DNA from: Eubacterium sp. | GTDB lineage: Bacteria; Bacillota; Clostridia; Oscillospirales; Acutalibacteraceae | Length of the DNA: 64,000 nt | Direction of reading: 5' to 3' | NCBI GenBank assembly: GCA_017445905.1 | Contig: JAFSRX010000070.1 | Span: forward strand, 25,654 to 89,653 | Shown here: piece by piece, positions 4,431-63,961 of the stretch | Numbering within the stretch: position 1 is the stretch's first letter | How the letters are laid out: each line of letters opens with the position of its first letter | Made by a program: the position numbers and the translations under genes | The notes under the pieces: generated by a model | What the model was told of the DNA's origin: nothing | The model's database searches: none | The model's input: only the letters and a program-made list of their open reading frames with translations

Positions 4431-5906
4431 ATGAACAATAATATATATCGCGATATATCCTCAAGAACTCAGGGGGATATTTATATAGGTGTAGTTGGTC
4501 CTGTAAGGTCGGGCAAATCAACCTTTATTAAAAGATTTATGGAAACTCTTGTTGTTCCGAATATTCAGGGAGAATTTCAAAAGGAAAGAGCACGGGATGA
4601 GCTGCCTCAATCTGCTGCAGGAAGAACAATAATGACAACTGAGCCTAAGTTTATACCTGAGGAATCAATAGAAATTTCTATGCAGGATAACATTCAGCTA
4701 AAAGTCAGAATGATAGACTGCGTTGGCTACATCGTTCCAAGCAGCGAGGGTTATATCGAGGATGAACAGCCTCGAATGGTTATGACTCCATGGTATGAAG
4801 AGGAAATTCCTTTTAATATGGCTGCTGAAATAGGGACAAAAAAGGTTATTCAGGAGCATTCAACAATAGGTCTTGTTGTAACAACCGACGGCTCTATCAG
4901 TTCAATAGACCGAGCTGAATATGAAGAGGCAGAGGAAAGAGTTATAAGCGAGCTTAAAGAGCTCAACAAACCCTTTGTTGTTCTTATGAACAGCATTGAT
5001 TCTAAGAGCGATAATGTTAAAGCTCTTGCCAAAGATATGAGTGAAAAATATTCAGTTCCTGTTATACCTGTTAACTGTCTTGAGCTTGATGAGGATGAAA
5101 TAAAAGAGATTTTACTCAATGTTTTATATGAATTTCCGATTAACTCCATAGGTATTAATCTTCCTTGTTGGTTCTCATCTCTCGATGATGACGATAAACT
5201 GAGAAAGTCTGTTTTGAATACCGTTAAAGGTAACTGTTCTGAAATATCAAGCGTTCGTTCAGTATATAAATTTGCAGGCGATATTAACGAGGATGAATAT
5301 ATTCAGTCTTCATCAGTTGCTAAAGCGGATTTATCAAACGGAAATGTTTTAATTAATCTTGATATAGATAATAAATATCTGTTTAAGATTATCAGTGAAA
5401 AATGCGATGCTGATATTAAAAACGAAGAGGATTTGTTAAATCAGTTAACCGATCTTGCTCAGACAAGAAATAAGTTCAATAGAATTGCAAACGCACTTGA
5501 ACAGGTTGAGCAAACAGGCTACGGCATTGTTATGCCAACTCTTGAAGAGCTTTCTCTTGAAGAGCCTGAGATAATGAAGCAGGGCGGAAAATACGGCGTT
5601 CGTCTTAAAGCACACGCACCGTCAATTCATATGATTAAATGCAATACTTATACCGAGGTTGCTCCAATAGTTGGCAGTGAGTCACAAAGCGAGGAATTAG
5701 TTGTTTACCTGCTAAAAGAGTTCGAAAACAATCCTGCTGAAATATGGGAAACAAATATTTTCGGAAAGTCGCTCAATTCCTTAGTAAATGAAGGATTGAA
5801 CAATAAACTCTATCGAATGCCCCAGGATGCAAGAGATAAGTTCAGAGAAACTATTGAAAGAGTTATTAATGAAGGCTGCAGCGGACTCATTTGCATAATT
5901 TTATAA
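4431..5906 (+). CDS. spoIVA: Stage IV sporulation protein A, spore coat ATPase
   Basis: SpoIVA is the ATPase that polymerises on the outer forespore membrane and forms the base of the spore coat. The 491-residue length matches the family (about 492). A Walker A motif, GPVRSGKST, lies at residues ~19-27, the conserved DCVGY follows at ~95, and the C-terminus ends in the short amphipathic tail typical of the family. The start chosen is the ATG at 4431: an AGGAGG site at 4416-4421 is spaced correctly for it, whereas the ATG at 4422 directly abuts that site. It forms an operon with the sipL-like gene and ends at a strong hairpin terminator. Confidence 0.95.
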   Translation: MNNNIYRDISSRTQGDIYIGVVGPVRSGKSTFIKRFMETLVVPNIQGEFQKERARDELPQSAAGRTIMTTEPKFIPEESIEISMQDNIQLKVRMIDCVGYIVPSSEGYIEDEQPRMVMTPWYEEEIPFNMAAEIGTKKVIQEHSTIGLVVTTDGSISSIDRAEYEEAEERVISELKELNKPFVVLMNSIDSKSDNVKALAKDMSEKYSVPVIPVNCLELDEDEIKEILLNVLYEFPINSIGINLPCWFSSLDDDDKLRKSVLNTVKGNCSEISSVRSVYKFAGDINEDEYIQSSSVAKADLSNGNVLINLDIDNKYLFKIISEKCDADIKNEEDLLNQLTDLAQTRNKFNRIANALEQVEQTGYGIVMPTLEELSLEEPEIMKQGGKYGVRLKAHAPSIHMIKCNTYTEVAPIVGSESQSEELVVYLLKEFENNPAEIWETNIFGKSLNSLVNEGLNNKLYRMPQDARDKFRETIERVINEGCSGLICIIL

Positions 5907-5938
5907 AAAATATGCCTGTGAAATCACAGGCATATTTT
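5907..5938. terminator. Bidirectional terminator between spoIVA and the DUF1294 gene
   Basis: Two perfect 15-base arms, AAAATATGCCTGTGA and its complement, enclose a 2-base centre. The A/T ends can serve as U-tracts on either strand. The stop codon of the convergent DUF1294 gene lies inside it. Confidence 0.85.
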
Positions 5939-6199
5939 AGATATAAGTATTAAAACTATTATATTCAAAACAATCAGAATCGGCATTCCAATCATAAAGC
6001 TTTTATGCTTTGTTTTATGTCGGATTATTTTCATAGTTGCATATGAGCAAGGGGCTCCGCCAAGAAGTCCGATAATCCAGAGCGTTGCTTCCTTAATTCT
6101 CCATTTATTATGTTTCGCTTTATATTTATCAAGACAGTTAACAATAACACCGAGTAAATTAATAGCTAAGAAATAATATATAACATAATTAAACTTCAA
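5924..6199 (-). CDS. DUF1294 family small membrane protein
   Basis: A 91-residue protein with hydrophobic segments near residues 4-22, 38-55 and 70-90. It has the family pattern DKYKAKHNKWRIKEATLW...GLLGGAPCSY...RHKTKHKSF. The biochemical role of DUF1294 is unknown. It starts with TTG at 6199, preceded by AAAGGAG about ten bases away, and overlaps the end of the upstream zinc-ribbon gene by 11 bases, so the two are probably translated together. Confidence 0.85.
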   Translation of the reverse strand: MKFNYVIYYFLAINLLGVIVNCLDKYKAKHNKWRIKEATLWIIGLLGGAPCSYATMKIIRHKTKHKSFMIGMPILIVLNIIVLILISKICL

Positions 6200-50888: not shown

Positions 50889-50931
50889 ATTAACACATCC
50901 TTCGACAAATATTTTAATATATAATATTTAA

Positions 50932-50964
50932 AAAAGCAAGCATGAATTAATCATGCTTGCTTTT
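50932..50964 (-). terminator. Hairpin behind the displaced tRNA-Leu 3'-end copy
   Basis: Perfect 14-base arms AAAAGCAAGCATGA/TCATGCTTGCTTTT with a 5-base loop. On the minus strand it is directly downstream of the second copy of the tRNA-Leu(CAA) 3' end and is followed by T-rich sequence, so it is probably the tRNA's original terminator. Confidence 0.75.
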
Positions 50965-51141
50965 GGTGCCGGCGGCGGGGTCGCCACGATGCTGTCGCAT
51001 CTACACGCCCACGTCGGCAAAAACAGTCCACTGGACTGTTTTTTTCCGAACTGCTTTGCAGTTCTCCCTCCTTTTCGACCCCCATTGATTCTGACGAATC
51101 AAAAAAACAACAACCCAACCTAAAGGTTGACTTGTTGCTTT
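50965..51141 (-). mobile_element. tRNA-tail element A: about 178-bp non-coding element behind tRNA-Leu(CAA)
   Basis: The stretch GCTTTTGGTGCCGGCGGCGG occurs at the tRNA 3' end (51138-51157) and again 178 bases further on (50960-50979). Between the two lie, read on the minus strand, a terminator hairpin, GGGGGTCG (which can pair with the GCGACCCC next to the second copy), GAACTGC-AAA-GCAGTTC (51064-51048), then AAACAGTCC and GGACTGTTT (51041-51021). Element B behind tRNA-Gly has the same order of parts. It contains no ORF I would support. Confidence 0.65.
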
Positions 51142-51864
51142 TGGTGCCGGCGGCGGGGGTCGAACCCGCACCCTGTTGCCAGGACCGGATTTTGAGTCCG
51201 GCACGTCTGCCAATTCCATCACGCCGGCAAACTGTACTAATACAGTATATTTATTTTCGAATGAAAAGTCAAGATAAATGAGTTTGTTTTTTAACTTTTC
51301 GTAAATCTCAACTGCTTTGAATTTGACGATGTATTTATCCTTTTCAATCAGATTTCTTTCATTTTCTGTTAAAACTTCGTCAAAATCCTTTGTGCACCCT
51401 GATATACATACGCTTGGAAACATAACACACCACCAGTTATGCCCCTTTCCGCTTCCAATTTCAACAATCAGTGATTCGTAAACTCCGGCGGGAAGTGTAA
51501 AATCGTCGTACTTTCTTGTATTGAAATACTCTTTACCGATTCTTACCGAGCAGCCATATTCATAACCGTTTGCTCTGATTGTATTGATAACAGAATCTTT
51601 TATAATATCAATATTATCTTTTGCGCTTCTTATAGCTTCATCAACTGATTTACAATTATTAAAAATGCTTTCTGTATCGTTAAGAAGTTCATCACGAACT
51701 TTAAGTTTTAAATTCTGGTCGAACATTTCATCGCTGTTTGCTCTTATATGGAGTCTGAATACTTTATTGCTGATATCCTCGCTCAGTTTTATGCTTGAAG
51801 TCAGACTTGTTATAAGTAGTAAAAGAATAAAAATCGGTGTGAAAACATAGATGGTTTTTCTCAT
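51001..51864 (-). CDS. spoIIR: Stage II sporulation protein R with a reading frame that runs through tRNA-Leu(CAA)
   Basis: SpoIIR is secreted from the forespore and triggers SpoIIGA to process pro-sigma-E. The SpoIIR domain is clear: a signal anchor (IFILLLLITSL), FRLHIRANSDEMFDQNLKLKVRDELL, and GSGKGHNWWCVMFPSVC. It ends about residue 190-195 (EIYEKLKNK). After that the frame has no stop: ~197-207 are translated tRNA promoter, ~213-241 translated tRNA-Leu (MELADVPDSKSG is the usual sign of such read-through) and ~242-287 translated trailing element, up to the stop at 51001. The tail is therefore not a protein domain; the original stop seems to have been lost. Whether the extended protein works is unknown. 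Confidence 0.85.
   Translation of the reverse strand: MRKTIYVFTPIFILLLLITSLTSSIKLSEDISNKVFRLHIRANSDEMFDQNLKLKVRDELLNDTESIFNNCKSVDEAIRSAKDNIDIIKDSVINTIRANGYEYGCSVRIGKEYFNTRKYDDFTLPAGVYESLIVEIGSGKGHNWWCVMFPSVCISGCTKDFDEVLTENERNLIEKDKYIVKFKAVEIYEKLKNKLIYLDFSFENKYTVLVQFAGVMELADVPDSKSGPGNRVRVRPPPPAPKATSQPLGWVVVFLIRQNQWGSKRRENCKAVRKKTVQWTVFADVGV
51101..51138 (-). terminator. Terminator next to tRNA-Leu(CAA)
   Basis: Read on the minus strand, CAACAAG-TCAACC pairs with GGTTGGG-TTGTTG and is followed by TTTTTTT. Confidence 0.7.
51142..51228 (-). tRNA. tRNA-Leu (anticodon CAA)
   Basis: The 87-base gene has acceptor GCCGGCG/CGCCGGC, anticodon loop CTCAAAA, a long variable arm, T-arm GGGTTCGACCC and an encoded CCA. 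Its promoter lies within the spoIIR frame. Confidence 0.95.
51244..51272 (-). promoter_or_regulatory. Promoter of tRNA-Leu(CAA), inside the spoIIR reading frame
   Basis: On the minus strand TTGACT (51272-51267) and TATACT (51249-51244), spacing 17, ending about 15 bases before the tRNA 5' end. Confidence 0.8.
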
Positions 51865-63606: not shown

Positions 63607-63722
63607 ATTATTACTCCTTTGTAACATAATGAAAATATTATATCACTAATATATAAGTCTGTCAATATATCAAAAGATTACAATAAGTTAAAAATACTTA
63701 AATGTTTGCTAATTACGAAAAT

Positions 63723-63889
63723 GCGGATTACGAGACTCGCTCGGCACACTTTCGCGCTCTCCGGCACGCACACGGGCACCAAAACAGTCCGCCAGACTGT
63801 TTTTATTTGCCGTTGGCAAATTGCCCTGATTGAGTCTCGTCCGCTTTTCCAGAACAAAAAGCACCCGAATGGGTGCTTTTTGTTCTGGA
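63723..63889 (-). mobile_element. tRNA-tail element B: about 167-bp non-coding element behind tRNA-Gly(GCC)
   Basis: The tRNA 3'-end sequence GCGGATTACGAG (63890-63901) recurs at 63723-63734, 167 bases further on; the second copy continues as ACTCGC, matching the T-arm part CTCGC, but has lost CCA. Between the copies lie, read on the minus strand, a 16-base-arm terminator, GCGGACGAGACTC (which can pair with GAGTCTCG next to the second copy), ATTTGCC-AAC-GGCAAAT (63821-63805), AAACAGTC and GACTGTTT (63802-63782), and GTGTGCGTG. The part order matches element A. No ORF is supported. Confidence 0.65.
63851..63886 (-). terminator. Terminator of tRNA-Gly(GCC)
   Basis: Perfect 16-base arms AGAACAAAAAGCACCC and their complement, 4-base loop, starting at the first base after the tRNA body. 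Confidence 0.85.
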
Positions 63890-63961
63890 GCGGATTACGA
63901 GGATCGAACTCGCTACCTTCACCTTGGCAAGGTGACGCTCTACCGAATGAGCTAAATCCGC
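63886..63961 (-). tRNA. tRNA-Gly (anticodon GCC)
   Basis: The 76-base gene has acceptor GCGGATT/AATCCGC, anticodon loop TTGCCAA, T-arm AGTTCGATCCT and an encoded CCA. Confidence 0.95.

Follow-up and report, generated by a model that had tools for sequence, protein, structure and literature searches.

In the DNA analysed here, a stretch of 64,000 nucleotides from a Eubacterium genome (hereafter the window), the gene for tRNA-Leu(CAA) is followed on its 3' side by a non-coding element of approximately 180 bases, in which part of the tRNA's own end appears once inverted and once in direct orientation. Related inserts are dispersed over other genes and patchily distributed; they form a defined added segment with a boundary at the T-loop, they share an internal insert, and their outer arms match the tail of the gene that they adjoin. 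We consider it somewhat probable, at a little under 60%, that the element is a very small, non-coding and non-autonomous mobile repeat that lives at the 3' ends of tRNA genes. Neither an autonomous copy nor an excised form was seen among the copies examined, and this counts against such a reading.

The host gene (positions 51142 to 51228 of the window, found by ARAGORN and by the Rfam tRNA model, with its CCA encoded) has spoIIR upstream and an alpha-amylase gene downstream; since it lies on the minus strand, as do the other features given here, "downstream" means towards lower coordinates. A 24-nt direct repeat, TTGCTTTTGGTGCCGGCGGCGGGG, occupies 50957-50980 and 51135-51158, at a spacing of exactly 178. 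The earlier note had reported this recurrence of the tRNA end 178 bases downstream, along with terminators, a stretch able to pair with an arm, and further hairpins between and after the two copies; all of these are present, and the observation is real and correctly described. Read on the tRNA strand, the order is tRNA end (B'), first terminator (T1), a small hairpin, inverted B', the insert X, direct B' and distal terminator (T2). B', the segment that is copied in the element, comprises the last 23 nt of the tRNA from the T-loop to the CCA (51142-51164). T1, a terminator-like hairpin with a T-run (51101-51141), was delimited by folding and by comparison with empty relatives, and falls within the added 178 bases. 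After it comes the small hairpin GATTCGTCAGAATC (51087-51100), similar ones of which occur in two other filled relatives (L237 and L238); its sequence is also found after the terminator of an insert-free relative (L227), where it may be a leftover. The left arm, GGGGGTCGAA (51074-51083), is a 10-nt reverse complement from B', namely the T-loop and the 3' side of the T-stem inverted, and can pair with the right arm to make a closing stem (P1). Between the arms lie a hairpin GAACTGC-AAA-GCAGTTC (51048-51064), the core palindrome AAAAACAGTCC-AGT-GGACTGTTTTT (51019-51043), which is common to the family and has both sides of its stem changed in some copies, and, near the right end of the insert, a hairpin GATGC-GACA-GCATC (50988-51001). 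The right arm, CGACCCCGCCGCCGGCACCA (50964-50983), is a direct copy of the tRNA end with one C fewer than the gene, the copy being exact over the 17 nt to the end and extending to 20 nt with one base missing. T2 (50930-50963) holds the position of the terminator of empty relatives with the same neighbour gene. The element is present here as a single copy, and tandem units are found in some relatives.

No plausible gene and no integrase of its own were found in the element, the open reading frames of at least 40 codons that touch it being 43 to 61 codons long, except for a frame of 287 codons derived from spoIIR. This last frame (51001-51864, minus strand) reads without a stop up to the tRNA, across that gene and on into the element, for which reason gene callers may give it a false C-terminus. 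The 216 nt behind tRNA-Leu(CAA) fold to -98.3 kcal/mol, where shuffled sequences average -59.1 (z -8.96; none of 200 shuffles reached so low a value). Rfam, searched at gathering and at loose thresholds, has no family for the element in the window, in the element region or in 20 related loci.

A sample of 60 genomes of the genus was used to establish the state of this site in relatives; a search for tRNA-Leu(CAA) located the gene in 40 of them, the own genome included. The element is present in six (the own genome, G000, and G016, G029, G031, G032 and G034) and absent from 33, the one remaining genome having only 21 nt downstream of the gene. If 178 bases are skipped, the window aligns with the empty relatives G074 and G002 at scores of 221 and 239, versus 90 to 112 in six other empty genomes; G074 and G002 share the downstream amylase gene, the start of which gives most of the alignment score, and in the terminators themselves the match is visible for G074 and poor for G002. 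From the alignment after skipping, T1, the left arm, the insert and the right arm make up the added part, and T2 stands at the place of the terminator in the empty genomes.

Within the own genome, the core pattern ACAGTCC-NNN-GGACTGT occurs at 13 places, and a reversed-pattern control at none. Direct repeats of 16-45 nt span 11 of the 13 cores within 450 nt (the cores L057 and L063 have none within that distance), as compared with 3 of 189 control positions in other loci that have a spanning repeat of at least 14 nt within 350 nt. Several of the cores lie behind complete tRNAs (Arg, Ser, Gly, Leu, Val, Pro), others adjoin partial tRNA ends, and one (L056) is near the 3' end of a gene read by eye as guaA; the core stem is found in paired variants built on ACAGTCC, AGCTCC, CAATTC and GTGCC. 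An inverted arm, a tail copy or both follow 12 of the 28 distinct tRNA genes of this genome, 2 of the 28 having too little downstream sequence, and in most cases they surround a hairpin insert. The insert X is mostly about 80-140 nt long, foldable, and common to different tRNAs. Similar inserts also stand behind protein genes, namely rpsI in L034, L035, L039, L110 and L114 and a serC-like gene in L038 (gene names by eye), loci which entered the sample through the core and were counted without a control. An intrinsic terminator only, that is a hairpin and T-run with nothing more, was ruled out as an account of the element, the anatomy of the whole unit recurring across loci. At one own-genome locus (L058:1318-1390), behind a tRNA-Gly(GCC) on contig C42, a match to Gut-1 RNA (RF01706) lies just past the element.

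A further possibility is that selection maintains the element as a functional RNA or 3' trailer, as may be the case for RttR in E. coli; the arms would then form a closing stem, the dispersal would go back to ancient duplication and the patchiness would reflect loss. This has the conservation of pairing in its favour. In a structure alignment of 12 copies at five tRNA genes, the closing stem and core show 94.9% paired cells against 85.8%, and a covariation score of 0.227 where shuffles average 0.080, both values exceeding those of all 500 shuffles; the closing stem was chosen from the same 12 sequences, and the slid control is not independent of that choice. The pairing is maintained through changes on both sides. 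The number of further pair types is not outstanding (9 versus 7.4 shuffled, reached by 90 of 500 shuffles). A second and more decayed copy in the window itself (63719-63838, minus strand; the covariance model match G000:C50:89372-89491), which lies behind tRNA-Gly(GCC) at 63886-63961, has a 12-nt direct tail copy at 63723-63734 and has lost the exact tRNA match in its arms, ACGAGACTC and GAGTCTCGT, which by eye still pair with one another; either selection maintains the stem, or the tRNA itself has since changed. RttR, furthermore, is annotated as an sRNA in E. coli. Against a selected RNA stand the filling of only six of the 40 tRNA-Leu(CAA) loci and the similar inserts behind protein genes, and, given that the window element lies 3' of a terminator-like hairpin, low transcription is to be expected. 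We regard this explanation as improbable, and count the covariation among the evidence for the mobile repeat too, although a selected RNA may be what the conserved structure reflects.

The arms follow the tail of the gene beside which they lie. Of 142 tRNAs, 32 are followed by both a direct copy of 13 nt or more and an inverted copy of 9 nt or more, versus 0.5% of 4924 pairings with the sequence downstream of another tRNA; as the 142 were partly picked by nearness to a core, this control bears only on the match of the arms to the preceding tRNA. The clearest series comes from a single genome, G265, in which nine copies, with a mean pairwise identity of 0.82 in the inner X (0.67-0.92), are each closed by an 8-bp arm pair. 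Six of them closely follow a complete tRNA and repeat 21 nt of its tail exactly, the tRNAs being Arg(TCT), Ser(GGA), Leu(GAG), Gly(CCC), Arg(CCG) and Ala(GGC); of the others, two are in tandem behind a partial tRNA end, and one begins at a contig end and matches a tRNA-Val(CAC) located at the edge of another contig. In the tRNA copies inspected, the direct copies start in or beside the T-loop. The terminators are less regular: T1 is closest to its own T2 in 10 of 35 loci, there is no recognisable T1/T2 duplication in the other 25, and exact block repeats of 58 and 80 nt are present in L071 and L133. Distal terminators at different tRNAs (L296, L298 and L303, all in G265, and L082 and L097) have the loop TTTGTCTACCAA or a close form in common, and the terminator hairpin looks as if it were a repeat itself.

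These observations bear upon the earlier note's interpretation. Its proposal that a small non-coding insert sits at the tRNA 3' end agrees with the empty sites in relatives and the related inserts behind many other tRNAs. Its call for a search of related genomes and other tRNAs returned copies behind different tRNAs with a shared internal order, and the comparison of genomes with and without the element at tRNA-Leu(CAA), which it had also proposed, revealed the patchy state (6/40 filled). Given the empty relatives and the inserts at other tRNAs, the element is neither fixed at one place in all relatives and confined to it, nor a set of copies lacking a common internal order, the two outcomes that the note had held to be damaging to its view. 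Its further suggestion, that the element brings its own replacement end, is doubtful: the arms in G265 are identical to the adjacent tail, and the terminator is recognisably duplicated in the 10 loci noted above, so that local copying of the tail fits better than a carried end. The recognition of the inverted arm as a copy of the tRNA, the copies behind protein genes and the kinship of layout with the E. coli RtT repeats (see below) go beyond that note.

The most substantial alternative to consider at this point is that a site-specific recombinase carried out the integration, or that the element is what such an event left behind: the repeats would then be attL and attR at the T-loop, and a cis-mobilised island would have been stripped to its ends, the integrase coming from elsewhere. 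Direct tail repeats with a T-loop boundary fit a tRNA attachment site, the tail being regenerated, and partial tRNA ends lie beside several copies. One own-genome copy (L052/L252, G000:C10 at about 4437-6000) consists of an insert of this type, preceded by part of a tRNA end in inverted orientation, directly after an open reading frame that reads, by eye, as a tyrosine recombinase. Above all, the core L057 (G000:C41, at about 102045) is chimeric, with the tail of Leu(CAG) and its inverted arm upstream of the core and the tail of Pro(TGG) downstream; that its far side is the tail of a different tRNA fits an exchange between loci, as a two-locus recombination would leave. However, the same structure could equally have arisen by homologous recombination between two inserts. 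Similar inserts have different arms at each tRNA, whereas a circle arriving from another tRNA would leave a foreign 3' end, and the inverted arm is left unexplained. No integrase is linked to the window copy. On balance we judge recombinase integration to be unlikely, though not negligible.

Replication slippage or template switching at terminator hairpins, with no mobile element involved, is another possibility, and tandem units (L192, L267/L290, and the 178-bp units of E. coli) as well as the duplicated terminators are what it would produce. However, X is common to unlinked loci and genomes, and the inspected tRNA copies have direct repeats whose start falls in the T-loop or just beside it. 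Slippage is very improbable as an account of the family.

In order to gauge the reach of the family, a covariance model (R1) was built from 12 copies and applied with strict filters, at which weak matches are lost. The class was sampled with 391 genomes, 24 of which gave matches. Inspection of 46 of the 48 listed matches showed a tRNA on the same strand, no more than 600 nt upstream, in 34 cases; its tail is repeated over at least 12 nt in 32 of the 34. Most of the other inspected matches are at partial tRNA ends or contig ends. The model contains columns from the tRNA end, and so the association with tRNAs seen through it is partly circular, which the core search in the own genome is not. A scan of public genomes for the core gave, among the matches listed, 105 cores with enough flank, 19 of them with a tRNA within 400 nt and 17 with a spanning repeat of at least 14 nt. 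With so few of the listed public cores adjoining tRNAs, the core alone is not diagnostic; the palindrome is also common as a terminator-like hairpin. On viral contigs the bare core occurs at 9 loci, none of which has a tRNA within 600 nt of the core, and two longer insert patterns gave no matches there. Two records named for other phyla were also encountered, one (L326, Curvibacter) in which a tRNA-Ser has a AAAACAGTCC-type core behind it, and one (L086, Planctomycetota) in which a tRNA-Ala is followed by the core and a direct tail copy.

A comparable layout exists in the RtT repeats (RF00391) of E. coli. Behind tyrV of E. coli K-12 there are three units 178 nt apart, each of which holds the 19-nt tail AATCCTTCCCCCACCACCA in direct orientation and, 100 nt ahead of it, the inverted copy GGGGAAGGAT. 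RtT and the window element are thus alike in lying 3' of a tRNA with a direct copy of its end (the last 19 nt in E. coli) and in having an inverted tail copy ahead of the direct one (GGGGAAGGAT in E. coli, GGGGGTCGAA in the window), the latter not being a published criterion. In other genomes, RF00391 copies with matching tails follow tRNAs for Tyr, Gln and Ser. Among 5426 E. coli genomes, 4692 have RtT, at 1 to 10 places each (median 3); 18 of these 13174 places are on plasmids. The Rfam RtT model also matches 65 of 369 genomes of the class of a Curvibacter genome, which we take to be the Gammaproteobacteria. A tRNA accompanied by a direct tail copy of 12 nt or more is present at 22 of 30 RtT loci inspected, and 17 tRNAs of Tyr, Gln and Ser type at RtT loci have an inverted copy of at least 8 nt as well. 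An inverted copy of at least 9 nt occurs for 13 of 39 tRNAs, versus none of 1214 pairings with the downstream sequence of other tRNAs, and at a threshold of 8 nt the figures are 17 of 39 and 0.5% of control pairings. There are also clear differences. RtT is in tandem behind its tRNA, in numbers that vary between E. coli strains, whereas the window element is single; by eye, the tyrV repeats have no AACAGTCC-type core and no evident intrinsic terminator; and there is no Rfam RtT match in the window, in the element region at the loose threshold or in 20 related loci. As the layout is shared without such a match, the two are the same kind by anatomy and are not members of one family. A difference of 175 bp in repeat number in the rtT RNA appears in a Salmonella comparison (PMC2658671), and rttR is given among the sRNAs with a predicted REP (PMC12306157); in annotation and in the accessible literature, RtT is described as an sRNA and not as a mobile repeat. 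The titles and opening lines of abstracts in the open-access literature likewise gave no description of an element of the present type as mobile. Taken with the shared E. coli layout, the family suggests a little-noticed kind of tiny mobile DNA.

Such an element would have points in common with several known classes. Integrative elements that target tRNA genes use tyrosine integrases and attachment sites in the T-loop, and they may leave cis-mobilised remnants. Partial tRNA genes left behind by integrating elements have been described (PMC9897764). The window element resembles these elements or their remnants in the duplication of the tail at the tRNA 3' end and in the intact tRNA regenerated by direct repeats. 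It differs in its size of some 180 bp, in its lack of an integrase (although a remnant need not have one) and in its inverted arm; furthermore, there is no single fixed attachment sequence, the arms changing with the target, and L057 is chimeric. REP elements are small palindromic non-coding repeats moved in trans by REP-associated tyrosine transposases (RAYT), and the family is likewise one of small palindromic non-coding repeats, with GTAG beside the hairpin in most of the G265 inserts. Unlike REP elements, its arms are specific to the host gene, and the Y1 transposase genes of carriers are not flanked by X where inspected. MITEs, lastly, are short, non-coding, multi-copy and foldable, with constant terminal inverted repeats. 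The family shares the first four of these properties, but its terminal arms differ from target to target, and what is duplicated is the tail of a gene, together with a terminator in some loci.

For the mobile repeat that we favour, it is reasonable to postulate that each copy is a foldable insert X that entered at the T-loop of a tRNA. The order of tRNA end, terminator, inverted B', X, direct B' and terminator means that the tRNA keeps an intact end. The arms would be copied from the target at each move, and the block of tail and terminator would be duplicated during insertion. The nearly universal T-loop sequence GTTCRA may serve as the point of annealing or cutting, for its complement TCGAA is present at the left end of X; this end could anneal to the GTTCRA of any tRNA gene, whereupon extension, on a DNA or RNA template, would copy the tail. 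A putative enzyme would be supplied in trans. We put forward tentatively, and at less than even odds, the wider proposal that there is a class of bacterial mobile DNA, the E. coli RtT repeats included, whose ends are remade at each jump by copying the target tRNA tail in both directions from the T-loop. We set aside a snap-back mechanism, in which the whole tail would be copied on through the terminator, on the ground that the inverted arm spans the T-loop and T-stem and usually not the rest of the acceptor strand.

As to candidate enzymes, reverse transcriptases (PF00078) were found in 4 of 13 carriers and 1 of 5 other genomes, and a resident enzyme of this type is disfavoured as the present mover, being absent from both G000 and G265. 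A Y1 transposase is present in 10 of 13 carriers and in none of 5 others, in a small post hoc test chosen after the hairpins had been seen, confounded by kinship, and with the non-carriers judged by model R1 alone. The Y1 genes at eight loci inspected are not flanked by X, and several look like ordinary IS200 genes; as a mover, the Y1 transposase is a weak lead. Divergent Y1-type transposase genes were also noted at L363, L364, L366, L367 and L369, those at L367 and L369 being flanked by GGGGTACGACCCC or GGGGACAGTCCCC palindromes and not by X. In G265, insert ends lacking a partner, which might reveal a longer autonomous copy, were sought; this yielded the known copies, the contig-end copy behind tRNA-Val and one degenerate right end.

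Should a class with ends copied from the target exist, a single insert could settle harmlessly behind any tRNA gene, and behind some protein genes such as rpsI. We know of no accepted origin for the tRNA piece that every unit of the E. coli tyrT repeats carries; if RtT and the present family are of one kind, that piece would be the footprint of an insertion. Many tRNA-tail repeats currently filed as sRNAs or as attachment-site debris would then be explained, and the family would represent a mode of movement in which it is the target that writes the ends of the element.
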